57,894 nt of DNA from a virus, in IMG/VR virus record IMGVR_UViG_3300031608_001030, positions 1 through 57,894 of that record. One strand, 5' to 3'. Positions 27,081 through 46,040 of the stretch are shown in pieces. A program made the position numbers and the translations under genes. Numbering within the stretch: the stretch's first letter is position 1; every line of letters starts with the position of its first letter. The notes below the pieces were generated by a model. The model had not been told where the DNA came from and searched no databases. It saw nothing but the letters and a program-made list of their open reading frames with translations.

Positions 27081-27564
27081 TATCCCTCTGTTGTTGTTCT
27101 AATAACTCCTTACGTTCAGCTACCGATGGTATCTTATCATATTGACCCCAATTGTAGTTAACTGCCTTAATCGATACGATTTTCTTTAAATCAAACGTTC
27201 GATATCCAGCTTTAAATTTCTTATCATTTTTAATCTCATCGGTGTAAAATACCTTTGATGATGATGTAATTTGTACTTTTGCTAATTCCAATTTCCGAAC
27301 CTTAGTTGATTCTGCTAAGACCTCTTTATAATACTCACCCATTTCTTGTACCTTTCCGGGTGCAATTGCGTTTAATGATAAAGCGTGAACCTTTCCATCA
27401 GCGGAGTTGGGCCATTTGGGTTGTAAAATTAATATAATATAATTCGCTGCACCAGAATCCTTCTTATATCGTAATTTTACAACCATACCACGCTCCAACT
27501 TCTCCTTTGAGATTACAGTTGGGTCGGTGGTTTTTCTTAGATGAGTATTATAATAGTCAGCCAT
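27070..27564 (-). CDS. Conserved hypothetical protein in the glycosyltransferase operon, 164 aa
   Basis: A beta-rich domain (MVVKLRYKKDSGAANYIILI, PKWPNSADGKVHALSLN) followed by a helix and an alternating segment ending FDLKKIVSIKAVNY. The pattern of a strand, a tryptophan turn and HALSLN resembles small phage structural proteins I have seen without assigned function. It starts by a one-base overlap (TAATG) with the upstream glycosyltransferase stop. Confidence 0.6.
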   Translation of the reverse strand: MADYYNTHLRKTTDPTVISKEKLERGMVVKLRYKKDSGAANYIILILQPKWPNSADGKVHALSLNAIAPGKVQEMGEYYKEVLAESTKVRKLELAKVQITSSSKVFYTDEIKNDKKFKAGYRTFDLKKIVSIKAVNYNWGQYDKIPSVAERKELLEQQQRDNEK

Positions 27565-28847
27565 TATTTAATCTTTTTTAATGTAGGTAATTTTAATCCT
27601 ACCGATTTCGGTGTAATTGGAATTTTCGTTTCATCTATAAGAGTACCTATTAATTCTACCATCTTCTGATATGAAAAGGTATCTTTAGAATATTTACGAT
27701 GCTTTCTGGACTTCTCCAAATAAGGTTTATAGTTCTTATACATATCACTCATAACACCTGCAGCTGCTTTATAATCAATCGTAAACCACTTCGCGTCTTT
27801 AATTAAAAACTTATCTGCAGCTGAAGTATGTACTCCGGTTAACTCACCTGGAATCACACTAACAAAGTCAGAGTTTATGAAATCCAGTTGGCCGCTCCAA
27901 CCACTAACAATCATCGGCTTTCCACTAACGGTTGCTTCTAACAAAGGCCTACCGAACCCCTCACCTCTCGTAAATGAAACATGAGCCTTAACTTTCGGAT
28001 GATTGTATAATGCGTTTATTTCAGCATCAGTCAAATCAGCATGTAGTAAGTATATAGGTGGTAATTTCGTTGAATCCACTTGTGTTTTAATATTCTCTAT
28101 CAACTTTTTTATTCTAACTCTATCAACTAATGAAGTTGAACCCATTGATGTTTTTAGAATTAACGCCGGTTGCTTACTTTTGTTCTTAAATGTGTTTAAG
28201 AATGTCCATATCAAACCACTTACATTTTTTCTATCCTGAAAGAATTCACCTTTTAGCCAATGCCCTACGAATAGGAACGCAAAATCTTCTTTAATATCTT
28301 TAAGAGTATTATCAATTCCAGCTTCAGATGGTGCTTTTTCATTGTAGATATCTAAATCGATACCCTCAAATAAAACCTCTACCGGCTTTTCAAGTCTAAG
28401 TTGACCTATTGAATTACCACTATCTTTATCCTTCTTATCAAATACTGATGATTGGATAACTTCTTTGGTAAATTTTGATGATACTAATGTTAAGTCCATT
28501 CTATTAATACCCTCCAAACATTCAGGTGGCATTACCGTTGTTTCTACTCCGGCAGTTACACCGATGTTGAAATCACCCACAGGTGTAAATTCATTTGGTA
28601 CTGTAATCTGAATCCATACATTAGGCTTCTTCTCCATCTTTTCAGTAACCACTCTGCTTAATAAATCATCATCATTACCTTCTTTTAATACATCCATTGC
28701 TGTCTGCCCCCATCTCTGAGAAATGATATGAATATCCCAATCTGGTTTAGATTTAATAAGGCCTCTTACGAAATCTCTACTTCTTGCCCCATAACCACTT
28801 CGGGTTGCGATGGGGCAACTTACTACACATAACTTTTTTATAATTTC
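27564..28847 (-). CDS. Glycosyltransferase family 4-like
   Basis: The reading frame opens at 28877, but MEIIKKLCVVSCPIATRSGY at 28847 begins the GT-B domain and leaves only a 10-nt overlap. The C-terminal donor domain has the expected YLLHADLTDAEINALYNHP, VSFTRGEGFGRPLLEA (the GEGFGxPxxEA signature of GT4) and GKPMIVSGWSGQLDF. It would transfer a sugar with retention. Part of the 30.2-23.5 kb glycan operon. Confidence 0.88.
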   Translation of the reverse strand, partial: EIIKKLCVVSCPIATRSGYGARSRDFVRGLIKSKPDWDIHIISQRWGQTAMDVLKEGNDDDLLSRVVTEKMEKKPNVWIQITVPNEFTPVGDFNIGVTAGVETTVMPPECLEGINRMDLTLVSSKFTKEVIQSSVFDKKDKDSGNSIGQLRLEKPVEVLFEGIDLDIYNEKAPSEAGIDNTLKDIKEDFAFLFVGHWLKGEFFQDRKNVSGLIWTFLNTFKNKSKQPALILKTSMGSTSLVDRVRIKKLIENIKTQVDSTKLPPIYLLHADLTDAEINALYNHPKVKAHVSFTRGEGFGRPLLEATVSGKPMIVSGWSGQLDFINSDFVSVIPGELTGVHTSAADKFLIKDAKWFTIDYKAAAGVMSDMYKNYKPYLEKSRKHRKYSKDTFSYQKMVELIGTLIDETKIPITPKSVGLKLPTLKKIK

Positions 28848-30226
28848 CATAATACTATTTCGTTTCTTGGTTTCCAATTATTAAGTGCAGTTCCCATAGA
28901 GTCTATAAATCTAGCTCCCATATTTTCTGCACTCATTCCACTTTCATCTGATTCTACAAATACTGAACCCTCTAACCCACATTCTTTACGAGTCGGTTCA
29001 TCCATATCATACCACTGCCTTAATACCTTACCTACATCTTCAAATGAACACCTATCATCAAAGATATATGGTGTTGCGATTGAACCTTGTAATGAGCGAT
29101 TAGTTGGCCATACTGGTTTTACCCATCTACCCCATCCTAAATTCTCAGGTAATTCTTTGTGATTATGAAGTGAGCCTAATTTGATGTAATCATCTGCTGT
29201 TATGAACTTACCATCTTTGGTAAATCTACAATGGTCTTGCATACCACCTGTAACATTAACTATAATTGGTGTTCCGGCTCTCATTGATTCACAAGTTGCC
29301 AAACCAAAGCCTTCGTTAGATGCAATGTTAAGTGTTACATCTGCCACATTATATAATACATTCAAATCATCAGTTGAAAACTGAGAATGAGTAAATACTA
29401 CATCGTAATCTGGACACAACTCATCGATAACGGCTGGGATATCTGTTCCATTCGGGTCAGATGGTGCTGTATGTAATAACAATACACATTCATTAGCTTC
29501 TTCCTTCGTCATACCATCACACATTTCTTTATATGATAATATCACATCACCTGGATTCTTTCTACGAATGTTTCTGTTATTCCAAAGAACAACAAACTTC
29601 TTATCTGAAATACCTAACTTCTCTTTTAATTCAGTAACCTGCTTAAATTCAGCTGATTCAGTTGGGATTGGTTTGAACTTTTTAGATACACCATGTGGTA
29701 CATACTTTATCTGCCAATCTTCATACTTTTCACCAAACTTCTCTAATACCCTCTGATTGATACCGTATGTTTGTTTTGAAATACCCATTAGTAAATCACA
29801 ACTTGCATAGAATGGAGCGTTCCATTGTGGGTCTGGCAAATCATCCCATATATTATAATAGAATATAGGAACGTGTCTACGAACCTCATCTTCCATCGCA
29901 TACAACCAATCCCAAAATCTAGGGTCGGTAAAGTGTAATATAGCATCAGGTTGTTCTGTTGTAATTAACTGTCTAAGTAGTTCTTGATTACCATACCCAC
30001 TAAATGGGATAATCTTTACACTAGCATCAGCAACTCCACTTTCTTCTGCGACTGAATCGGATACATCGAAGAACTTTCCTGCATCAGGATGTTTAACGGC
30101 TGCTCCTACTTGAACCCAATCATATTTATGTACGGTATTTAGAACTATCTCCTTTGACATTGTTGCGATTCCACTATGTAATCTCATGTCATCCGAAAGT
30201 AATAAAATCTTTTTCTTCTTACTCAT
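28838..30226 (-). CDS. Glycosyltransferase family 4-like, first gene of the operon
   Basis: A GT-B protein of 462 residues: the N-terminal ILLLSDDMRLHSGIATMSK, central KYVPHGVSKKFKP (donor-site entry with H-G-V), VVLWNNRNIRRKNPGD and LNIASNEGFGLATCESMRAG carrying the EGFGLxxxE signature. The start ATG is followed by K-rich MSKKKK. A TATAAATA sequence directly upstream is probably chance. Same operon as five other glycosyltransferases. Confidence 0.88.
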   Translation of the reverse strand: MSKKKKILLLSDDMRLHSGIATMSKEIVLNTVHKYDWVQVGAAVKHPDAGKFFDVSDSVAEESGVADASVKIIPFSGYGNQELLRQLITTEQPDAILHFTDPRFWDWLYAMEDEVRRHVPIFYYNIWDDLPDPQWNAPFYASCDLLMGISKQTYGINQRVLEKFGEKYEDWQIKYVPHGVSKKFKPIPTESAEFKQVTELKEKLGISDKKFVVLWNNRNIRRKNPGDVILSYKEMCDGMTKEEANECVLLLHTAPSDPNGTDIPAVIDELCPDYDVVFTHSQFSTDDLNVLYNVADVTLNIASNEGFGLATCESMRAGTPIIVNVTGGMQDHCRFTKDGKFITADDYIKLGSLHNHKELPENLGWGRWVKPVWPTNRSLQGSIATPYIFDDRCSFEDVGKVLRQWYDMDEPTRKECGLEGSVFVESDESGMSAENMGARFIDSMGTALNNWKPRNEIVLWKL

Positions 30227-37385: not shown

Positions 37386-38603
37386 TTATCTTCCGATTTC
37401 TTTTAAGTAGGTCTTTTTCATTTCTTCCCAACTCATTCCAATTGCCTCTAAATAAAATAAATGCTCTGGCTTTAACCTACCCTCTGAGTGTAATTTAGTA
37501 TAACGTTTGATAGCTTTCTTCTTCCACCAATTGTTAATATAAGGAATTCCATCAACAAACTTCTTCTTCATTACCAATTCAGATTCTTCAATCTCATCAC
37601 GTAAAAATGCCTGCCCATTATCGTACATCATTGCAAGATATACACCACGTTTGAATCCATGATGGTATGCTGATTGTTTGATACCACATTCTTTGAAAAT
37701 CTTCCCAAGAATCTTTTGTTTGATACCACTCACAGGACCACTAGCTCCTTCACCAGCCCCCATATTAGCACCATTACGAATTCGTTCGTTAGTGATTGCA
37801 GTTTTGTACCATTCTGCTTCATTTTCCTTCAACCATTGATGCCACGGGTCATAAAACTTATCATCAGGTTTCAGAGAAATCTTTCCTGCTGATTCACCTA
37901 ATGTTTTAAAGTGAGGTATTCCATTGTATTGAGAATGAATCCCATATAATGAAGTTGTACCTACACCTATCAAAGTTTGACCGTATTTCTTTTTCCAAAA
38001 TTCCCTTACTTCAGGAACTGTAGTCATCATAGCAACGAGTTTCCCACCTAAAAAGTTGTAACCCAATGGTTGTGTACAGACAATTGTTGATGCAATTGTA
38101 GTATGGTTTAATTTCCCCTTCTTAAACTTATCGTCCTTAGTCCAACCAATGTAGTTATCTCTAACTGCCATTGATGTTACATCAGATGCTAATGATATTT
38201 GTCCTAAGAGTTTACCACTCTTTTTATCTTTAACATTGATTTTAACATTACGACCAGGATTAGCAGTAAAATCCATCGAATGAATCATACGCCTAGCATA
38301 TGTCCATTTAGTGGCATCTTTAGGGTCATCAAGGATTTCAACATATGGTTCTAACTCTTCAATTTCTTTAATAGTTTGTTCCAAATTGTTAATATCAGCA
38401 GGAGCCCATTGAGTATCATACATTGCTGCGATTTGAGATTTATCCCGAATCATTTTTACATCTTGTAATTCTACCCACTTCTTATATAAAACTTGCTCTT
38501 GCACAGTCATTGTTGCGAGATAATCCATATTCTCTATCAACTCACGCTTCTGTGTTTCGAAGTCAAACTTCGGCTTTGCTGGCTCTGTATCCCAAAAACT
38601 CAT
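37386..38603 (-). CDS. DruA-like DUF4338 protein
   Basis: Residues 130-260 match DUF4338: LLGQISLASDV (131-142), AVRDNYIGW (146-154), VCTQPLGYNFLGGKLVAMM (175-193), EVREFWKKKYG (198-208) and TTSLYGIHSQYN (216-227). The N-terminal 120 residues are helical, the C-terminal 140 include basic helices. DUF4338 is the DruA component of the Druantia defence system, but phage copies exist without the helicase DruE; none is visible here. Its place between clamp and clamp loader suggests a role at the replication fork or in nucleotide or DNA modification. Confidence 0.82.
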   Translation of the reverse strand: MSFWDTEPAKPKFDFETQKRELIENMDYLATMTVQEQVLYKKWVELQDVKMIRDKSQIAAMYDTQWAPADINNLEQTIKEIEELEPYVEILDDPKDATKWTYARRMIHSMDFTANPGRNVKINVKDKKSGKLLGQISLASDVTSMAVRDNYIGWTKDDKFKKGKLNHTTIASTIVCTQPLGYNFLGGKLVAMMTTVPEVREFWKKKYGQTLIGVGTTSLYGIHSQYNGIPHFKTLGESAGKISLKPDDKFYDPWHQWLKENEAEWYKTAITNERIRNGANMGAGEGASGPVSGIKQKILGKIFKECGIKQSAYHHGFKRGVYLAMMYDNGQAFLRDEIEESELVMKKKFVDGIPYINNWWKKKAIKRYTKLHSEGRLKPEHLFYLEAIGMSWEEMKKTYLKEIGR

Positions 38604-38731: not shown

Positions 38732-39427
38732 CTACTTAATTTCCACTAAATAATAGTTCGAAACTAAACCATCTCTTTCGAATTTAACATGTGCTAATCC
38801 AGCTGATGCTATTTTCAACGTTGCTGATTTAGAACCTTTGTTAGCGTTTAATATCTCCTTTAGATACTTTGCCGAAAATGAAATTGGTTTGATATCCTTC
38901 TCACATTTACATTCCACATTCATAGAAATTCTATTTGTGTTAATAGTTGAGTAACCTAATACAACTTCACCCTTTCCACCTTTACAAGTAAATGTAAATG
39001 TATCCGATTCGTTAAGTGCTCCTTTAGATTTAATAAATCTACTCGTAAACTCATCATCTAATGTAATTTCAGAATCAAATGGTGGTACTTGCTTTAAATC
39101 CGGTACTACTGGTATTACTGATAAATCAGCCAACATATAGTTTACCGATGTCCCTTTATCTGAGAATGTAAGATGTGATTGATGAGCTGCAACTTCTAAG
39201 TTGGATTCAACTACACCTAATAACGCCTTCATCTGAGATGTTGTATAGATACCGAATTCACCATTTGGAAAATCCTTCTCTGCCGATTCTACTGTACCCA
39301 ATAGCGTTTTATCATCTGATATAAAACTTACCTTCAATGAATCATCAGTTGATTCAATTTTTACTGATTCTACTTCGCCACCTAAATTGTAACGATTGAT
39401 GAACTGTTCAATACTTGCTTTTTTCAT
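38732..39427 (-). CDS. DNA polymerase sliding clamp (gp45-like)
   Basis: A 231-residue protein (T4 gp45 is 228) with two beta-alpha-beta repeats: the N-terminal half ends near VIPVVPDLK, and the second half contains FTFTCKGGKGEVVLGYS and ISFSAKYLKEIL. The final stretch (GLAHVKFERDGLVSNYYLVE) matches the C-terminal strand of trimeric clamps. It tethers the polymerase to DNA and in T4 also activates late transcription. Driven by promoter P13. Confidence 0.88.
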   Translation of the reverse strand: MKKASIEQFINRYNLGGEVESVKIESTDDSLKVSFISDDKTLLGTVESAEKDFPNGEFGIYTTSQMKALLGVVESNLEVAAHQSHLTFSDKGTSVNYMLADLSVIPVVPDLKQVPPFDSEITLDDEFTSRFIKSKGALNESDTFTFTCKGGKGEVVLGYSTINTNRISMNVECKCEKDIKPISFSAKYLKEILNANKGSKSATLKIASAGLAHVKFERDGLVSNYYLVEIK

Positions 39428-39518: not shown

Positions 39519-42035
39519 TTAAAATGAAAAGAATTGTCCGATTTTCTCTAAGTTTGGATTTGGGTTCTCCCAATCCATGGCGGCGTAGAAATCATCTAAC
39601 TTATTCTTTAATTCACGTTCCCATAACTTATCATAGTCGATGTATTGTTCTACCAAATCTAATATCTCTTTCGGGTCATTATATCCAGTCATACCTACAG
39701 TTTCCAATCCTAATGGATTATTCTTCAAATACACATACTTTATCTTATCACCATCTTTCATTGGTTCATATTTAAATGCTGCCTTATAATACTTCAATAA
39801 CTGATTGTAAGTAAGTGCTGCTTTAACATGCGCTGGTGTACCTTTCATAAACTCACCTAATACTTGCGTTTTAGTAGAATACTTACTCATACCCTTTACT
39901 GCTGAATTCTTAGCAATATCGATGTAATTTCGATTCGGCATATCATCCTTATAATCTAAAATCTTCTGGTCCAATAACATCTTATCTTCATCCTTTAGAA
40001 TATCCCATAATACAGTTGACATCACCTCTTTAAAGTATGTTGGAAATGAACTACGTTTTACATCTAGCCCCTTTACATCCAACTTATCACAATCTACGGA
40101 GTTATCATTGATAATCCATTGTGCGTATCGTTTCTTTGATACCCAAAAACCACCTTTTGCGATAGTCTCTTGCTTTATATCGAATCGATGATTAGTTACA
40201 TTGAATAACTTCTTTGACATCATGTCATACGTTCCATTGATGTGAGCCTCAACCTCTTGTGCTACTTGCAATATAGCAGGTATCATTTGTGCATCATCAT
40301 TCTCATCAATTTCAGGGTTTCTAGCTTTCACTAATGGAGCTGCCTGATAAAATACAGAATCCGTATCTGTATATACATTGTAATCAGCCTCTTTACCAAT
40401 ATGCTTAACATAATAACTGTTAGCTATCATCTCAGTAGTTTTAATTACAGTCTGACCTGTAAGTGTAACTGCTTCTGCGTTATCCACATCATAGAATCTA
40501 AAGGCTGGTAGCCCTAATACACCATAAAGTGAATTTAACATAATTTTCTGAACTAACTGTCTTTGATGATAGAATTTATATAAATCATCATTTCCAGCCT
40601 TTCCATGCTTTTTCATTTCATCTTTATACTGAACCCTCTTATCAAACCATACATTAAGAATCTCAGGTATTACACCTACTTTTTCTAAAGAGTATAAAAC
40701 ACCATTAGATGCTATCGATACATTCATCTTCTTAGTGAAATCCTCAAACTTACCTTTATCCATAGTAGGATATTCATTACCATCATCATCTACAATGATA
40801 TATTCATCAATTTTAGATTTCATATGGTCCTCTGCTGTATAACCTTTAACCTTACCAATCTTCGTTTCGGGTGAAATGTTAATTGTCATAATAATAGATG
40901 GATATAGTGATGTTAAATCTAAATCATATACCCACTTATAAAGACCTGGTTTAGGTTCTTTTACATATGCTCCGGTAAACTTACCTTCTGCATCTGAGCC
41001 ATCGGAGTTTTTATTTCTTCTTAAAGGTCTATCTGGAGCTACACGCCCACTTCTTCGTAGGAATGTTAATATTGCCCCCTCTAACCACTTTGATGAGAAT
41101 ATGAAATCCTCATAGAATACGTGACCTGCATGACAGATTGCTCTGGCTAATTCAATGAATTGTAATTTCTTATCCATATCAACTACCAATTCAACATCCA
41201 CTAAGTTATACTCAATGAACTTTTCAATATCATCTCTGAATAGTTGGTCTAAGTTCCCCTCATACTCAATCTTACCTCTACCCAATTCCATTCTAGCGAT
41301 AGTATCTAATCGATAATTTGGATATTCAGTATATGTAAAGTTTTTGAATAGAGCGATGTAATCTAATGCAGATACACCAGCTATGATATAACGCTGTCTG
41401 TATTTATTCCAATGAACTTTTTGAATTGGTGAGAGTCTATCTGCGTTCTTCTTACCAACCATTCGCTTCATTCGGTTGTACATATAAGTTACATCAAAGA
41501 AATCAATATTCCATCCTGTAATAATAGTAGGTGCAATCTCTTCCCATTTGTTTAAGAATGCCATTAACATATCTTCTTCATTTTCAAACGAACGAACCAT
41601 AGCACCTTTGATAGTTTTGTTTATCTCTTCACCTGGGGTGATAACATATACATAATAATCATTTGTTGCTGAATCATGGAATGCTACTGAAGTCATTGCG
41701 TTTTTAGCTTCTGATATATCCGGTAGACCTGAATTCATTTCTACCTCAATATCAAATGTTAATACGATGTTACCTTCTGATACTTCATCCGAATCACCAT
41801 ACTCATCAATTAGGAAACGAGTTACCTCATTTACATCAGATTCATATAATTTCAGATTATCTTCTCTATTCCAATAATTGATTTTCTTTAAACGCTCACC
41901 ATAAATTGATTGATGTGAGCCATTCCCATCCTCAATATACGCATAATTTCGGTGCTTCTTTGTGAAGTACCCCTTCTTGTCATCCCAGCAATGTAGGATG
42001 CCTCCTTCTTTTTCCCAATATACATTTTGATACAT
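39519..42035 (-). CDS. Family B DNA polymerase (gp43-like)
   Basis: 838 residues, near T4 gp43 (898). The 3'-5' exonuclease shows Exo I FDIEVE (D95, E97), Exo II WNIDFFD (D178) and Exo III YNLVDVELV (D280). The polymerase domain shows motif A DLTSLYPS (373-380), motif B KIMLNSLYG (497-505), motif C YTDTDS (555-560) and KKRYA. It ends LEKIGQFFSF, an aromatic tail suited to clamp binding as in gp43. No intein is present. Its promoter P14 lies in the end of the upstream glycosyltransferase gene. Confidence 0.97.
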   Translation of the reverse strand: MYQNVYWEKEGGILHCWDDKKGYFTKKHRNYAYIEDGNGSHQSIYGERLKKINYWNREDNLKLYESDVNEVTRFLIDEYGDSDEVSEGNIVLTFDIEVEMNSGLPDISEAKNAMTSVAFHDSATNDYYVYVITPGEEINKTIKGAMVRSFENEEDMLMAFLNKWEEIAPTIITGWNIDFFDVTYMYNRMKRMVGKKNADRLSPIQKVHWNKYRQRYIIAGVSALDYIALFKNFTYTEYPNYRLDTIARMELGRGKIEYEGNLDQLFRDDIEKFIEYNLVDVELVVDMDKKLQFIELARAICHAGHVFYEDFIFSSKWLEGAILTFLRRSGRVAPDRPLRRNKNSDGSDAEGKFTGAYVKEPKPGLYKWVYDLDLTSLYPSIIMTINISPETKIGKVKGYTAEDHMKSKIDEYIIVDDDGNEYPTMDKGKFEDFTKKMNVSIASNGVLYSLEKVGVIPEILNVWFDKRVQYKDEMKKHGKAGNDDLYKFYHQRQLVQKIMLNSLYGVLGLPAFRFYDVDNAEAVTLTGQTVIKTTEMIANSYYVKHIGKEADYNVYTDTDSVFYQAAPLVKARNPEIDENDDAQMIPAILQVAQEVEAHINGTYDMMSKKLFNVTNHRFDIKQETIAKGGFWVSKKRYAQWIINDNSVDCDKLDVKGLDVKRSSFPTYFKEVMSTVLWDILKDEDKMLLDQKILDYKDDMPNRNYIDIAKNSAVKGMSKYSTKTQVLGEFMKGTPAHVKAALTYNQLLKYYKAAFKYEPMKDGDKIKYVYLKNNPLGLETVGMTGYNDPKEILDLVEQYIDYDKLWERELKNKLDDFYAAMDWENPNPNLEKIGQFFSF

Positions 42036-42049
42036 AACTTAATTTTATT

Positions 42050-43189
42050 TTAACAAATATACAACTTTTTATGGAGATTACCAAGCATTTCCCCTTCATT
42101 TTTTGAAAGTTCTTTTGCTCTCTCTATAGCAAGTGTGTCTTTTTCCTTTCTTACTTCATCATTATCCAACAATGTATCTAACATCGAAAAGAAATCCTTT
42201 TTGAATTTAAAGAACATCCCATTCGGGTCTATTTCGTGATAACACTCTGAATCGTGCCATATCATTGGTGTACCATTCATCATACAGTCAGTACCACTTA
42301 CAGACCAACCGTAGTTAGTTTGCTTCATCTGAACACCTACCTTACAATTTTGTAATCTAGCATAGTATTCGTGCTTTGGTACTTTTGAATTATCAATCCA
42401 ACTATGTGGTGGTGTACCATTCAACTGAGGAATCCATACTTTGAAATCCTGTCGTTTAGTTCTATACTCTTCCATTAGTTCTATAAACTTAGGATATCCT
42501 TTATATGCTGCTGCTCTGTGATTAAATACAATAACATTTTCTTTAGTATCTTTAATAGTATCCACAATCTTTTCAGATTGTACACCTAAATTCCATACAT
42601 TAAGAATATTATCTAATTTATCAACGAACTCATCATTGAAGGTTTCCTTTGCTTCTGCTAATACCCTATTCTTTTGGTCTTGTGTATTTAAATAACAAGT
42701 ATCCATCTGAGATACACCTAATAATTCAATTGGTAACCATAACCACTTTGCTTTACCGGGTCTACGGTCAATTCCATTAGATGATTTCATTTCCCACCAA
42801 TGACAATATCCTATTATCTTAGTATCGATTGAATTCTTATACCTACCAACTTGCGGCCAATCTGGTAAATGTGAATATATTACATCATAATCAACATCCC
42901 TTAATATAGCGATTAACTTATCAGGTGGATATGCCCTCTGATTCATCATATCACCGGGAATGTCAGCCTGATGTTGTTTTACATTTGGTAAGTTAAGTTT
43001 CTTACTTACTTTACCAGTCGGCATTACGATGTGCCAAAAGTATTCACCATATTTATCTAACCCTTTGATGTGGTTATGTATTACATCTACAAAAGAGTCT
43101 TTCTCTATGTTTGAGGAGTTAGTGATATTTGGTATCACTAACACTTTCCTCGCTTTACTATAATCTATACTTTCCCAAAATTCCATCAT
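42050..43189 (-). CDS. GT-B glycosyltransferase beside the modification genes
   Basis: A 379-residue protein with a typical GT4-type layout: the C-terminal half has NVIVFNHRAAAYKGYPKFIE (entry of the donor domain), DFKVWIPQ, YYARLQNCKVGVQ and SGTDCMMNGTPMIW, with an acidic donor loop after it. It starts by ATGA overlap with the GIY-YIG/ParB-like gene, not in the six-gene glycan operon. The neighbours raise the possibility that it glycosylates DNA, like T4 alpha- or beta-glucosyltransferase, though its sequence is closer to protein or lipid sugar transferases. Confidence 0.78.
   Translation of the reverse strand: MMEFWESIDYSKARKVLVIPNITNSSNIEKDSFVDVIHNHIKGLDKYGEYFWHIVMPTGKVSKKLNLPNVKQHQADIPGDMMNQRAYPPDKLIAILRDVDYDVIYSHLPDWPQVGRYKNSIDTKIIGYCHWWEMKSSNGIDRRPGKAKWLWLPIELLGVSQMDTCYLNTQDQKNRVLAEAKETFNDEFVDKLDNILNVWNLGVQSEKIVDTIKDTKENVIVFNHRAAAYKGYPKFIELMEEYRTKRQDFKVWIPQLNGTPPHSWIDNSKVPKHEYYARLQNCKVGVQMKQTNYGWSVSGTDCMMNGTPMIWHDSECYHEIDPNGMFFKFKKDFFSMLDTLLDNDEVRKEKDTLAIERAKELSKNEGEMLGNLHKKLYIC
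42054..42085 (-). promoter_or_regulatory. Promoter P14 (CTTGG-N19-TATATTTG) for polymerase B
   Basis: CTTGG (42085-42081), 19 nt, TATATTTG (42061-42054). Embedded in the last codons of the glycosyltransferase gene; 19 nt lead to the polymerase ATG. Confidence 0.82.
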
Positions 43190-44499
43190 AATATTACTTT
43201 TTCACGTTTGTAAGTCATTTCTATTATTTCGTAAGTGTATCCCTTTGATGTTAACCAATAATCCAATCTCTCTCTTAATTTCATCTCTTCATCTACCCAT
43301 AACTCTTCAGCTGCAATAAATGATGAATGATAAACGTAATAAGCAAGGTGTTTTCTACCCTGCTTATCATCTTGCATTTTCTCACATGCTCTATCCCAAC
43401 GAAGTGAAGATGATGATTGGGATATAGCTAAAGTTTTATCGGTTGTACTTTCGGTTACAGCTTTAGTAAGAACTCCCTTATCTGCTTCTTGATAATCAAT
43501 CAATACTACATTCTGAAGAGTTTCATACAAATATGATTTTTTAAGTTCTTCAGCTTTTTTAAAGATATCTCTTCTTTCAGCTGAATCTTTACCAGAATCT
43601 TTTAGAATACCAATATTCATATCTGAATCTATTTCCAGTCGATTTCTTAACCAAAATCCGAATATCGTTTTTGCTAAAGTTTCTTTACTATTTGGTTCTT
43701 TTCTAATTTCTTTATCTTTATTAAGCCCAGTCGCAATCAACTCAATCTCACTAGTCGATAAATCAGCATGTATCTCTTTAGGTATTCTGATTACTTTTAT
43801 TGTAAGTGAGCCACAACTATGAGCGGCTTTTAATGTATGTGCTCCATCAATTCTTAAATCAGTTTCTCTATATAGTTTTTTATTTAATCTATCTTCTAAT
43901 ATAACAATTGGATTACAATTTTTAGTACTACCACTAACTTCGTTGATTTTAGATTTTATATATTTAAGTAAACTAGGAACATACTCCCCCAATCTAACTT
44001 GCCAAGTTGATATTTTCACCAAATTAGATACACTTTCAGTTGTAATGGGATATACACCATTCTCTATATTAGATACAATCTCTTTAACTAATGAAGGTCT
44101 CATTTTTTCTTTGTGATATGAACCATACATCTGATTCCAAAATTCGGGAGACCGAACAGCGTCATGCTTATCTATTTCATCAGATTCTTTGTTTTTCATA
44201 GTAGAATACTCACCATATTCTAATATTTTATATTGAATACGCTTTTCATCACCTTGAAGAATTGCTTTTCCTTCCAAATGCTTCATAGAAGTCCAATATA
44301 ATTTATCATTAAGTTTGTGTACCCCTAAGTACATACTACCAGATATCAAATCTTTAATATAATAAAGATATGCCTCATATGCCATTGGCTGATTTCCTAA
44401 ATCAACTTCTTTCATTGATGGTATCTTATAAAAATCAGATTCAGATAACCTAAACTGATTTTTAATACCATTACCACTACTTACTACTAATTCTGCCAT
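43186..44499 (-). CDS. Degenerate GIY-YIG domain fused to a ParB-like domain
   Basis: Residues 40-110 look like a GIY-YIG domain (AYLYYIKDLISGSMYLGVHK, then KAILQG), though the usual second G-Y is poor and the catalytic R and E are not clear. Residues 150-260 have the ParB/DGQHR layout, with DLRIDGAHTLKAA (DGAHT at 218-222) replacing GxHR, followed by SLTIKVIRIPKE. The last 170 residues are helical. The combination suggests a DNA-binding or nicking enzyme linked to modification, as DndB-type DGQHR proteins are. Driven by P15 with the conserved leader block. Confidence 0.6.
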   Translation of the reverse strand: MAELVVSSGNGIKNQFRLSESDFYKIPSMKEVDLGNQPMAYEAYLYYIKDLISGSMYLGVHKLNDKLYWTSMKHLEGKAILQGDEKRIQYKILEYGEYSTMKNKESDEIDKHDAVRSPEFWNQMYGSYHKEKMRPSLVKEIVSNIENGVYPITTESVSNLVKISTWQVRLGEYVPSLLKYIKSKINEVSGSTKNCNPIVILEDRLNKKLYRETDLRIDGAHTLKAAHSCGSLTIKVIRIPKEIHADLSTSEIELIATGLNKDKEIRKEPNSKETLAKTIFGFWLRNRLEIDSDMNIGILKDSGKDSAERRDIFKKAEELKKSYLYETLQNVVLIDYQEADKGVLTKAVTESTTDKTLAISQSSSSLRWDRACEKMQDDKQGRKHLAYYVYHSSFIAAEELWVDEEMKLRERLDYWLTSKGYTYEIIEMTYKREKVIL

Positions 44500-44535
44500 A
44501 ATTTTTATTATTTATTTATTTATTTATTTATTATA

Positions 44536-44579
44536 GGACTCAACTCTGTCCCTTTCTTATTACATAATAAAGATACGAA
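44536..44579 (-). promoter_or_regulatory. Conserved 5' leader block, copy 3
   Basis: Almost identical to 13103-13145 over 43 bases (GGACTCAACT, then TCCCTTTCTTATTACATAAT on the plus strand), including the TTATTA-CA-TAATAA inverted repeat. Confidence 0.75.
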
Positions 44580-44599
44580 TAATATATTGAAATTCCTAG
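44568..44599 (-). promoter_or_regulatory. Promoter P15 (CTAGG-N19-TATCTTTA)
   Basis: CTAGG (44599-44595), 19 nt, TATCTTTA (44575-44568). Third member of the TATCTTTA subclass; starts the GIY-YIG/ParB-like and glycosyltransferase genes. Confidence 0.75.
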
Positions 44600-44639
44600 C
44601 CTTTTATGATTTATTTTAAAAAGTTATTAACAATTTAAT

Positions 44640-44666
44640 GTTTACAGTAGATTGTTTACTGTAAAC
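44640..44666. terminator. 10-bp hairpin after the Mom-like gene
   Basis: GTTTACAGTA and TACTGTAAAC form a perfect 10-bp inverted repeat around a 7-nt loop, 3 nt after the Mom-like stop. No strong T-tract follows directly, so it may be a terminator, an RNA-end protector or an operator. Confidence 0.6.
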
Positions 44667-44669
44667 TCA

Positions 44670-45473
44670 CTACCAAAAGTTTATTGCGTTCGATTCCTCA
44701 GGCGCATAAGTGGTATGTGTTACAACTTCGGTGTTGTATTCAGATGCATCCTTCGGATACGGTCTGATTGGGTGTTTTAAACTACCCATTAAATGTTTCT
44801 TTTCTTTTTTACTTTGAGGTAACAACTGAATGTACCTATGCTTTGGTGGTTCTTCACGTCTCCAAAATTCAGTATGTCCTTCTTTACCGATTTCTTTACG
44901 AAGATGCTCTAAGTTACCACTACCCCATAATGAATATACAGTTCTACTATGAATCCAATTGTATGGGTCTTTGGTTAAAGATATACCCCAATTCGGCATA
45001 AGTGCTATATCAGTATTTAATCCCTGATACACCCAATTGGTTGCTTTGTAAATTCCACCAACATGCCCTTCACCGTTATTTGCATAACTAAGTAAACATT
45101 TGATGTTTTTATCGTTTTCTTTTAACCACTTAAATGTTTGTGACATTGCAAAAGATTCTATATTAGAACCATACCCGTCATCTATATATAAACGAGTAAG
45201 TTCTAATACATTGTCTTTTGTTAATTCTTCAGATATTGAAGTTGCTGCTCTAGCCCCAACTGGGAAACCATATACTGCAACACCGATTAACTTATCTTCA
45301 CCAAATTGAAATGAACTATCATCTGCTTTGTAGTAAACACCTAATGCGTATCTACAAGCAGTCCAAGCATGCGTATAATGCTTTTTGATAATCATATCTT
45401 TGGCAATAGATTTTGCTATTGGCGCTATATGTACCTTAGATACATCACAGTAATCCTTTCCCTCTTCTTTCAT
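44670..45473 (-). CDS. Mom-like DNA modification protein (GNAT fold)
   Basis: 267 residues. The acyltransferase-like fold shows IIKKHYTHAWTACRYALGVYY (29-49), KLIGVAVYGFPVG (61-73), LELTRLYIDDGYGSNIESF (90-108) and the long conserved LLSYANNGEGHVGGIYKAT (127-145) with NW after it, as in Mu Mom and its phage relatives. Mom adds a carbamoylmethyl group to adenine N6 and shields DNA from restriction. The mechanism needs co-substrates unknown here. It is ATG-spaced 6 nt after the HTH gene in the P16 unit and next to a glycosyltransferase and ParB-like gene. Confidence 0.82.
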   Translation of the reverse strand: MKEEGKDYCDVSKVHIAPIAKSIAKDMIIKKHYTHAWTACRYALGVYYKADDSSFQFGEDKLIGVAVYGFPVGARAATSISEELTKDNVLELTRLYIDDGYGSNIESFAMSQTFKWLKENDKNIKCLLSYANNGEGHVGGIYKATNWVYQGLNTDIALMPNWGISLTKDPYNWIHSRTVYSLWGSGNLEHLRKEIGKEGHTEFWRREEPPKHRYIQLLPQSKKEKKHLMGSLKHPIRPYPKDASEYNTEVVTHTTYAPEESNAINFW

Positions 45474-45479
45474 AACTGA

Positions 45480-45683
45480 TTATTGATAATTGTTAAATTC
45501 CCCAAACAACAAGTGTTTCCAAGTCTCACCTTTCACTATCCTACGGATATTAGCTGACGATACTCCATTATTCCTCGCCAAAACCTTTATGTTTCGATGT
45601 CCTATTTTATATAGGGTTCTAATAGATTTCACTTGCTCTTCGGTAAGTTTATGTGCTGGGTGTGATTCTCCTCTTAATGCCAT
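45480..45683 (-). CDS. Small HTH DNA-binding protein, 67 aa
   Basis: The start at 45683 (MALRGESHPAHKLTEEQVK) follows promoter P16; a longer frame from 45755 would run through the promoter. The rest, IRTLYKIGHRNIKVLARN then VSSANIRRIVKGETWKHL, is a helix-turn-helix of the type found at the ends of HNH/homing endonucleases. No nuclease part is present, so it may be a repressor, or a remnant of an endonuclease. Shares the unit with the Mom-like gene. Confidence 0.72.
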   Translation of the reverse strand: MALRGESHPAHKLTEEQVKSIRTLYKIGHRNIKVLARNNGVSSANIRRIVKGETWKHLLFGEFNNYQ

Positions 45684-45708
45684 TGTTCTTCGTAACTTTT
45701 TATTATTG

Positions 45709-45740
45709 TAAATATACAAAACTTTTTTGGATTTTCCTAA
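45709..45740 (-). promoter_or_regulatory. Promoter P16 (TTAGG-N19-TATATTTA)
   Basis: TTAGG (45740-45736), 19 nt, TATATTTA (45716-45709), in the intergenic gap after thioredoxin and before the HTH and Mom-like genes. Confidence 0.82.
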
Positions 45741-45741
45741 T

Positions 45742-45981
45742 TTATTTTGCTGCATTTATATAAGTAGATGCTTGCTGCACTCCTATGAACCGGTGTACTA
45801 CCACACCATCATTTATTAATATCACAGTTGGTATATTTTTAACATTATATTGTGTAGCTACATCCGGTTGGGAATCTACATCGATTTTTTGAACAGTAAC
45901 CGATTGTCCTACTTGAGCCATAATCGGGCTTAGTGTTTTACATGGGCCACACCATTCGGCCGAAAAGTATAAATATTTCAT
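45742..45981 (-). CDS. Thioredoxin
   Basis: A compact 79-residue thioredoxin: FSAEWCGPCKTLSP with the redox WCGPC (10-14), VQKIDVDSQPDV, and the cis-Pro NIPTVILIN. It is at the short end of the family (usually about 105 aa) and similar to glutaredoxin-size phage thioredoxins. It probably supplies electrons to the ribonucleotide reductase encoded just upstream. Confidence 0.92.
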   Translation of the reverse strand: MKYLYFSAEWCGPCKTLSPIMAQVGQSVTVQKIDVDSQPDVATQYNVKNIPTVILINDGVVVHRFIGVQQASTYINAAK

Positions 45982-46014
45982 ATTATTGTTGTTTTAAATG
46001 TTATTAAAAATGAA

Positions 46015-46036
46015 ATGGGGGTAGCGAACCCCCCAT
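46015..46036 (-). terminator. Terminator after nrdA
   Basis: ATGGGGG and CCCCCAT form a 7-bp GC-rich stem around an 8-nt loop. On the minus strand the stem is followed by TTTCATTTTT. It lies after two smaller hairpins behind the nrdA stop and before thioredoxin. Confidence 0.75.
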
Positions 46037-46040
46037 CTCT

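Follow-up and report, generated by a model that had tools for sequence, protein, structure and literature searches.

A swappable gene slot between Mom and glycosyltransferase genes of T4-like phages: a possible restriction-modification-like island

The DNA analysed here, hereafter the window, is IMG/VR record IMGVR_UViG_3300031608_001030 at its full length of 57,894 nucleotides, a 57.9-kb viral record with T4-like replication genes. Next to its polymerase gene, positions 42050-45740 hold genes for a small helix-turn-helix (HTH) protein, a Mom-family enzyme, a GIY-YIG/ParB fusion protein and a glycosyltransferase (GT). The order on the minus strand is thioredoxin, HTH, Mom, GIY-YIG/ParB, GT, family B DNA polymerase (PolB), clamp and DruA (Table 1), and the four open reading frames (ORFs) that a first-pass annotation had grouped as a DNA-modification island are all present there at the positions it assigned. 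Sequence comparison shows that the position between Mom and GT is a fixed slot filled by many exchangeable genes, of which GIY-YIG/ParB is one, and that the type of GT follows the class of occupant. Every line of evidence is sequence-based, and the locus counts, limited to 80 loci per search, are lower bounds that are influenced by kinship.

On sequence grounds, it is certain that the Mom gene product belongs to the Mom family of DNA adenine modification enzymes, as the first-pass annotation had supposed. It matches the whole of the Pfam domain PF25680 (E 1e-43; 149.9 bits against a cut-off of 27.1) and PHROG 1384 (E 5e-45), and it matches the Mu Mom structure 8bv8 at E 1.4e-5, with the KHY and YxATN/YxASN regions aligned. 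Mom was found in 19 of the 20 large contigs checked and in none of 14 control genomes, and only 258 of 50,697 phage records contain it; its best cultured relative belongs to a Polaribacter phage. The window carries a single copy, while 16 of 20 contigs carry two or three, and in most relatives a tandem pair is present whose copies are typically 44-51% identical to each other. The second copy has either been lost from the window or was never there. Second and sometimes third tandem copies comprise L035:7171-7932 and 53 more ORFs of relatives, and in one relative a RimK-like ATP-grasp ligase (L119:8675-9559; PF08443, E 1e-48) lies between both Mom genes.

The slot protein of the window consists of a GIY-YIG domain (residues ~38-126), a ParB/Srx domain (residues ~165-262) and a C-terminal region. 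By itself, it has no significant family match in Pfam or PHROG; its relatives match the homing endonucleases of PHROG 314 (6 of 17 members, E 7e-11) and the ParB-like PHROG 1033 (2 of 17, best 0.007), and one member matches Pfam SegE_GIY-YIG at E 0.024, which does not reach the Pfam cut-off. A structural model matches the ParB structures 7bnr and 6sdk and sulfiredoxins with a probability of 1.00, at a best E of only 3e-3, as well as viral ParB/Srx and GIY-YIG proteins (E to 1e-14); its domain arrangement is uncertain because the predicted TM-score is 0.47. These hits of relatives and fold matches bear out the proposed fusion. The GIY-YIG part had been described as degenerate, and this does not hold: Y46, Y57, G59, Y68, S71, E105 and N122 are unchanged in 45 of 45 non-redundant relatives, which places the nuclease core under strong constraint, and the core is intact as judged from the alignment. 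In the alignment, no invariant Arg of the I-TevI type follows the YIG motif; Y68 and S71 are invariant there, as in the SegE-like GSG region. At the ParB/Srx pocket position, G219 is retained in 45 and H221 in 40 of the 45 relatives, and Arg is replaced by Thr (T222, 38 of 45). The DGQHR/ParB-like domain of the first-pass annotation stands in its ParB part, whereas the DGQHR equivalent of the window protein reads IDGAHT, although DGQHR does occur in an alternative slot gene (N5, below).

Several searches with the slot protein were negative within their scope. The window protein does not match PF03235 (DUF262), so it lacks the GmrSD architecture of DUF262 plus HNH, and PADLOC did not recognise it. 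Sequence-profile searches of the PDB with GIY-ParB and with the GT gave no meaningful match, and a pattern scan of genome contigs, of limited sensitivity, found no cellular GIY-ParB homologues. A Pfam Polbeta hit in one member of 17 (E 0.003) was judged to be due to chance. With SegE-type GIY-YIG homing endonucleases the protein shares the core Tyr, Tyr-x-Gly, Glu and Asn and the order of strands and helices; unlike them, it is fused to ParB/Srx, is tied to modification genes and has no known homing site.

The GT is a GT-B fold glycosyltransferase according to its structural model (predicted local distance difference test 86.6), for which Foldseek returned retaining GT-B enzymes (best MshA, E 6e-12; TM-score to 0.72) and a glycosyltransferase of phage HY126 (E 1e-9). 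The Pfam GT profile gives 18.6 bits, under its cut-off of 26.4. The fold match upholds the earlier GT-B assignment; the description of this gene as a lone GT fails, since the genome holds two others, distant from the island (Table 1).

Table 1. Positions of the island genes and neighbouring features in the window
Feature	Position	Strand	Basis or context
Terminator-like hairpin	46012-46039		strong, 10 pairs; between RNR gene and thioredoxin
Thioredoxin	45742-45981	minus	gene-order context
Small HTH protein	45480-45755	minus	weak PHROG matches; 46 loci with this placement ahead of Mom
Mom	44670-45473	minus	PF25680, PHROG 1384, 8bv8
Gap ahead of slot gene	44500-44669	minus	sequence reading
Slot gene (GIY-YIG, ParB/Srx, C-terminal region)	43186-44499	minus	alignment, model, fold matches, PHROG hits of relatives, invariant residues
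GIY-YIG domain	about 44122-44388	minus	
ParB/Srx domain	about 43714-44007	minus	
GT-B glycosyltransferase, type A (predicted)	42050-43189	minus	directly upstream of PolB; model and Foldseek, relatives, slot coupling
Family B DNA polymerase	39519-42035	minus	downstream of GT; PHROG 262, E 6e-188
Clamp	38732-39427	minus	gene-order context
DruA family (PF14236/DUF4338)	37386-38603	minus	probable further island member; PF14236, E 2e-21
Other glycosyltransferase genes	27564-28877; 28838-30226		PHROG 2170 matches

The gene set recurs in other phages far above chance: 88 related loci share the order HTH-Mom(-Mom)-[slot]-GT-PolB, contrary to the lack of co-occurrence that the first-pass annotation named as a refutation. 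The wider order in relatives is RNR-Trx-HTH-Mom-[Mom]-[slot]-GT-PolB-clamp-DruA. Among viral contigs there are at least 137 relatives of the GT, at least 63 of Mom and at least 74 GIY-YIG/ParB loci. The closest cultured polymerase, that of Microcystis phage Mel-JY01, is 48.7% identical, and nothing similar to Mom or the GT lies near it; a DNA-level search of cultured phages with the window gave no match. The carriers of the island are a large uncultured group of T4-like phages.

Between Mom and GT, relatives hold mutually exclusive and mostly unrelated genes, or nothing. Besides the GIY-YIG/ParB gene of the window, the occupants include C10, in which a ParB part that matches GIY-ParB by profile (E 9e-5) and keeps GHTR is joined to an invariant PD..EIK motif of the PD-(D/E)XK kind; C14, with GmrSD_N (E 6e-8; PF03235 33.4 bits, cut-off 33.2) and HNH/endo VII (E 7e-7); N5, with DGQHR and HNH-like DHI..N motifs; and C20, with a GHKL ATPase (E 9e-10) and a weak PD-(D/E)XK. 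C22, C27, N9 and N11 are further alternatives, and C18, C19 and C30, of ~600 amino acids and without a known domain, merge into one very diverse family once more members are added. The motifs of C10, N5 and C27 were read by eye from alignments or single sequences.

Exchange at the slot is seen directly in close pairs of phages. In L109 and L110, identity is 99.2% as far as ~10 nucleotides (nt) into the slot gene and 97.2% from the GT start, yet their slot genes (C18 and C19) give no BLAST match to each other, the breakpoints lying within ~10 nt of the gene ends. Between L069 and L079, ParB-PD-(D/E)XK is swapped for GmrSD-HNH. Across 54 close pairs, 45 of the 70 unaligned stretches of at least 300 bp fall between Mom and GT/PolB. 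Direct evidence for lateral movement of the GIY-YIG/ParB gene comes from L005/L007, where it is 91% identical to that of the window, in contrast to 71% for the GT and 55% for PolB.

The occupants are coupled to the GT in spite of their diversity. Across unrelated families, the end of the slot gene usually overlaps the GT start by one base (TAATG type), as in 21 of 28 GIY-ParB, 9 of 11 C10, 4 of 8 C14, 3 of 3 C22 and 1 of 1 C27 loci; in the window, stop and start overlap by 4 nt. The GT occurs in two types, A (that of the window) and B, with about 30% identity. All 39 class 1 slots (GIY-YIG/ParB, C10, C14, C20, C22, C27 and others) occur with a type A GT and all 22 class 2 slots (C18/C19/C30 and N5) with a type B GT, at a Fisher probability of 4.5e-17 that includes no correction for kinship. 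The split holds even where backbones are near-identical: a single backbone group of 11 loci contains both combinations (6 and 2) and no mixed one (p 0.036). GT type differs within 25 close pairs. The layout differs in L117, L133 and L162, where a GIY-YIG/ParB gene follows a longer type B GT.

The gap between Mom and the slot gene ranges from 27 to 190 nt. Among 44 homologous gaps of relatives, 25 contain the promoter TTTG-N17-23-TAnnTTT, against 0.6 in mononucleotide shuffles. This motif, the Bacteroidota primary-sigma consensus, and the Polaribacter phage as the source of the best cultured Mom relative together suggest Bacteroidota hosts. The gap of the window lacks this promoter. It has a -7-like TATCTTTA without a clear -33 element, and it contains a perfect 10-bp inverted repeat (GTTTACAGTA..TACTGTAAAC) close behind mom as well as a tandem repeat of TAAA that directly precedes the slot start codon; both repeats are identical in four near-identical contigs. 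The hairpin upstream of thioredoxin sets the likely transcript of the island apart from RNR.

The small protein ahead of Mom, noted earlier as HTH, has weak matches to PHROG 517, 59 and 20467, which comprise HTH proteins and C-termini of HNH endonucleases. As its relatives measure 67-72 amino acids, against 91 here, translation may in fact begin at the internal ATG at 45683. The 91-residue protein contains zero cysteines and is therefore not a Com-type zinc finger, so that a Com homologue was ruled out. The island resembles the com-mom operon of phage Mu in that a regulator-like small gene directly precedes mom and in the match of Mom to the family profile and the Mu structure; it differs in the cysteine-free HTH gene, the frequent pair of Moms, the GT and the nuclease slot. 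In some relatives (L022:4244-6443, L029:3220-5986, L038:4368-6524), added genes are packed tightly upstream of HTH-Mom. They encode a GT2, a 2OG-Fe(II) oxygenase and a UDP-galactopyranose mutase (E 1.5e-75), joined in one case by a carbamoyltransferase; the row is a possible pathway toward a larger mark.

The DruA gene beyond the clamp was overlooked by the first-pass annotation. In a search that covered DruA alone among the Druantia genes, it was found in 20 of 20 large relatives and in none of the 14 control genomes, and DruA-like genes occur in 31 of 50,697 phage records. This Druantia-family protein is thus universal in the clade, and it is encoded also by Pelagibacter phages and cyanophages. 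DruA is possibly a second modification enzyme. A single superfamily of Mom and DruA was considered and rejected, as profile comparison was weak (4% probability); only one small DruA-like relative has a weak Mom PHROG match (E 0.011). In L164, L085, L086 and L121, DruA is relocated beside GIY-YIG/ParB, Mom or GT, and in some cases no more than about one base separates its end from the GT start.

The association of these genes extends beyond the PolB locus. Among GIY-ParB genes elsewhere with adequate flanks, 21 of 29 have Mom, DruA and/or GT no more than 4 kb away, and DruA adjoins GIY-YIG/ParB genes in contigs without Mom. Outside the clade, GIY-YIG/ParB stands beside DruA and GT (L164, L173, L187, L194) and between DruA and an unassigned gene of 327-330 amino acids, with a GT4 gene in addition in L185. 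Genes for a DNA-methylase-like, a GNAT and a GIY-YIG/ParB protein are consecutive in L216:4440-7430, and ORFs whose lengths match occupy the same place in L215, L218 and L222. C10 accompanies a DNA methylase domain protein, a pyridoxal-phosphate (PLP) enzyme and two likely glycosyltransferase genes in L151-L153; the row in L151:1402-7949 runs DNA methylase domain protein, PLP enzyme, GT, likely second GT, C10 and HD protein. The Mom gene of cultured Microbacterium phages overlaps with a ParB-like gene.

We propose, with a probability of about one half, that the locus is a phage-borne restriction-modification (R-M)-like island. In this model, Mom would acylate adenines in phage DNA, and the GT-B enzyme, which we infer to act on DNA, would add or complete a sugar-bearing mark to which DruA may contribute. 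The slot protein, produced together with the GT from overlapping genes, would be an exchangeable nuclease whose ParB/Srx domain, with a presumed nucleotide pocket as in GmrS/SspE-type enzymes, would discriminate phage-marked from other DNA, and which would cut host or competing-phage DNA; the mark may either spare DNA from the nuclease or trigger cutting. Modification and nuclease genes are linked and exchanged as a matched set, as in R-M systems, and the slot families that pair nuclease domains with ParB/Srx-type or ATPase domains count toward the same reading. Frequent nuclease exchange with Mom and GT kept is as expected for an arms-race effector shielded by a common mark, and the model would explain the linkage, the reader-writer matching, the rapid nuclease exchange and the writer-only loci. 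The DNA-modification island of the first-pass annotation, with its writing, sensing and protecting roles, fits in its Mom, its conserved gene order and its slot-GT coupling, though not in the degenerate GIY-YIG, the lone GT and the DGQHR of the window protein.

Some observations weigh against this proposal. No hydroxymethylase that could supply a DNA acceptor for the GT was found in the window, and larger relatives have canonical-looking thymidylate synthases with the usual LGLPFN motif; a hydroxymethylated base as acceptor, other than one made by a dUMP hydroxymethylase, was rejected on these two grounds. The slot is empty in at least 10 loci with Mom and GT, and there are GIY-ParB genes that lie near neither of these two. 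The slot counts are phylogenetically non-independent, and the p from a single backbone group is only 0.036.

Precedents exist for parts of the proposed system. In jumbo phages, Mom domains are fused to restriction endonuclease (REase) domains, for which an attack on host or superinfecting DNA has been predicted (PMC7824862); read as phage R-M, these fusions are a precedent for self-marking plus attack by a Mom-family enzyme and a nuclease. In the present island, by contrast, the nuclease is a separate, exchangeable, GT-coupled slot gene of several architectures, near DruA. The mechanism is modelled on the DUF262/HNH enzymes GmrSD (PMC4619093) and SspE (PMC13251355), which read modifications: C14 shares DUF262 and HNH with them, and all combine a ParB/Srx-type NTPase with a nuclease, but the island is phage-encoded beside modification genes, and the window occupant has GIY-YIG rather than HNH. 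Dnd loci likewise join modification genes to a ParB-family protein and to interchangeable nucleases further downstream, URI/GIY-YIG among them (PMC10853773); they are bacterial and use phosphorothioate chemistry, unlike Mom and GT in lytic-type phages. The first-pass view that the combination is undescribed is thus only partly sustained, as the kind is already known from the predicted Mom-REase fusions; what appears new is a hypervariable slot whose occupants are matched to the type of GT.

Three other explanations merit comparison. It is somewhat unlikely that the GT, like the sugar genes of relatives, serves to modify host surface glycans or virion proteins and that Mom alone acts on DNA. 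Surface glycans are frequent targets of phage GTs (PMC7824862) and the other GT genes of the window lie far from Mom, but in many contexts the island GT is tied to genes for a nuclease, DruA or Mom, and its type is matched to slot class. Also to be weighed is the idea that the slot genes are homing endonucleases settled near the polymerase gene, with Mom and GT as bystanders, since T4-like phages commonly carry GIY-YIG and HNH homing genes, genuine small HNH genes lie nearby (L013), homing proteins of the SegE type and of PHROG 314 are similar to the GIY-YIG part and the GIY-ParB gene moves between backbones (L005/L007). Homing would explain the diversity and mobility of the nucleases, yet not the GT coupling and matching: unrelated families of 400-670 amino acids occupy a single site with an identical 1-nt overlap, slot class tracks GT type with no exception, GmrSD_N, GHKL-ATPase and ParB/PD-(D/E)XK are defence-like architectures, and GIY-ParB accompanies Mom, DruA and GT at other genome positions. 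We consider it unlikely.

Even less probable is an accessory role, in which ParB/Srx slot proteins would help to write or regulate the modification in the manner of DndB/DpdB, their nuclease domains being vestigial or regulatory. The tight coupling to the GT would suit such a role, and ParB-superfamily DndB is a described regulator with possible nuclease activity (PMC10853773). Against it, empty slots coexist with intact Mom and GT, the GIY-YIG and PD-(D/E)XK core residues are invariant and the occupants are too diverse for a single biosynthetic step.

The evidence for an R-M-like island suggests that these phages mark their own DNA and carry swappable cutters against differently marked DNA. 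A more specific version, rather doubtful at present, is a combined adenine hypermodification in which the Mom acyl group would be glycosylated by the GT and read by interchangeable nucleases whose class must match the sugar-adding enzyme; if true, it would be an R-M system of lytic-type phages with swappable restriction subunits. The locus yields new candidates for nucleases that sense modifications. Phages that are near-identical except for their nucleases, together with two GT types with matched nucleases, form a natural experiment that makes the specificity between mark and reader directly testable. If the R-M-like reading is true, lytic-type phages would run a modular system of self-marking and attack with a recombination hotspot for nucleases, and the island would be a phage counterpart of bacterial defence islands.

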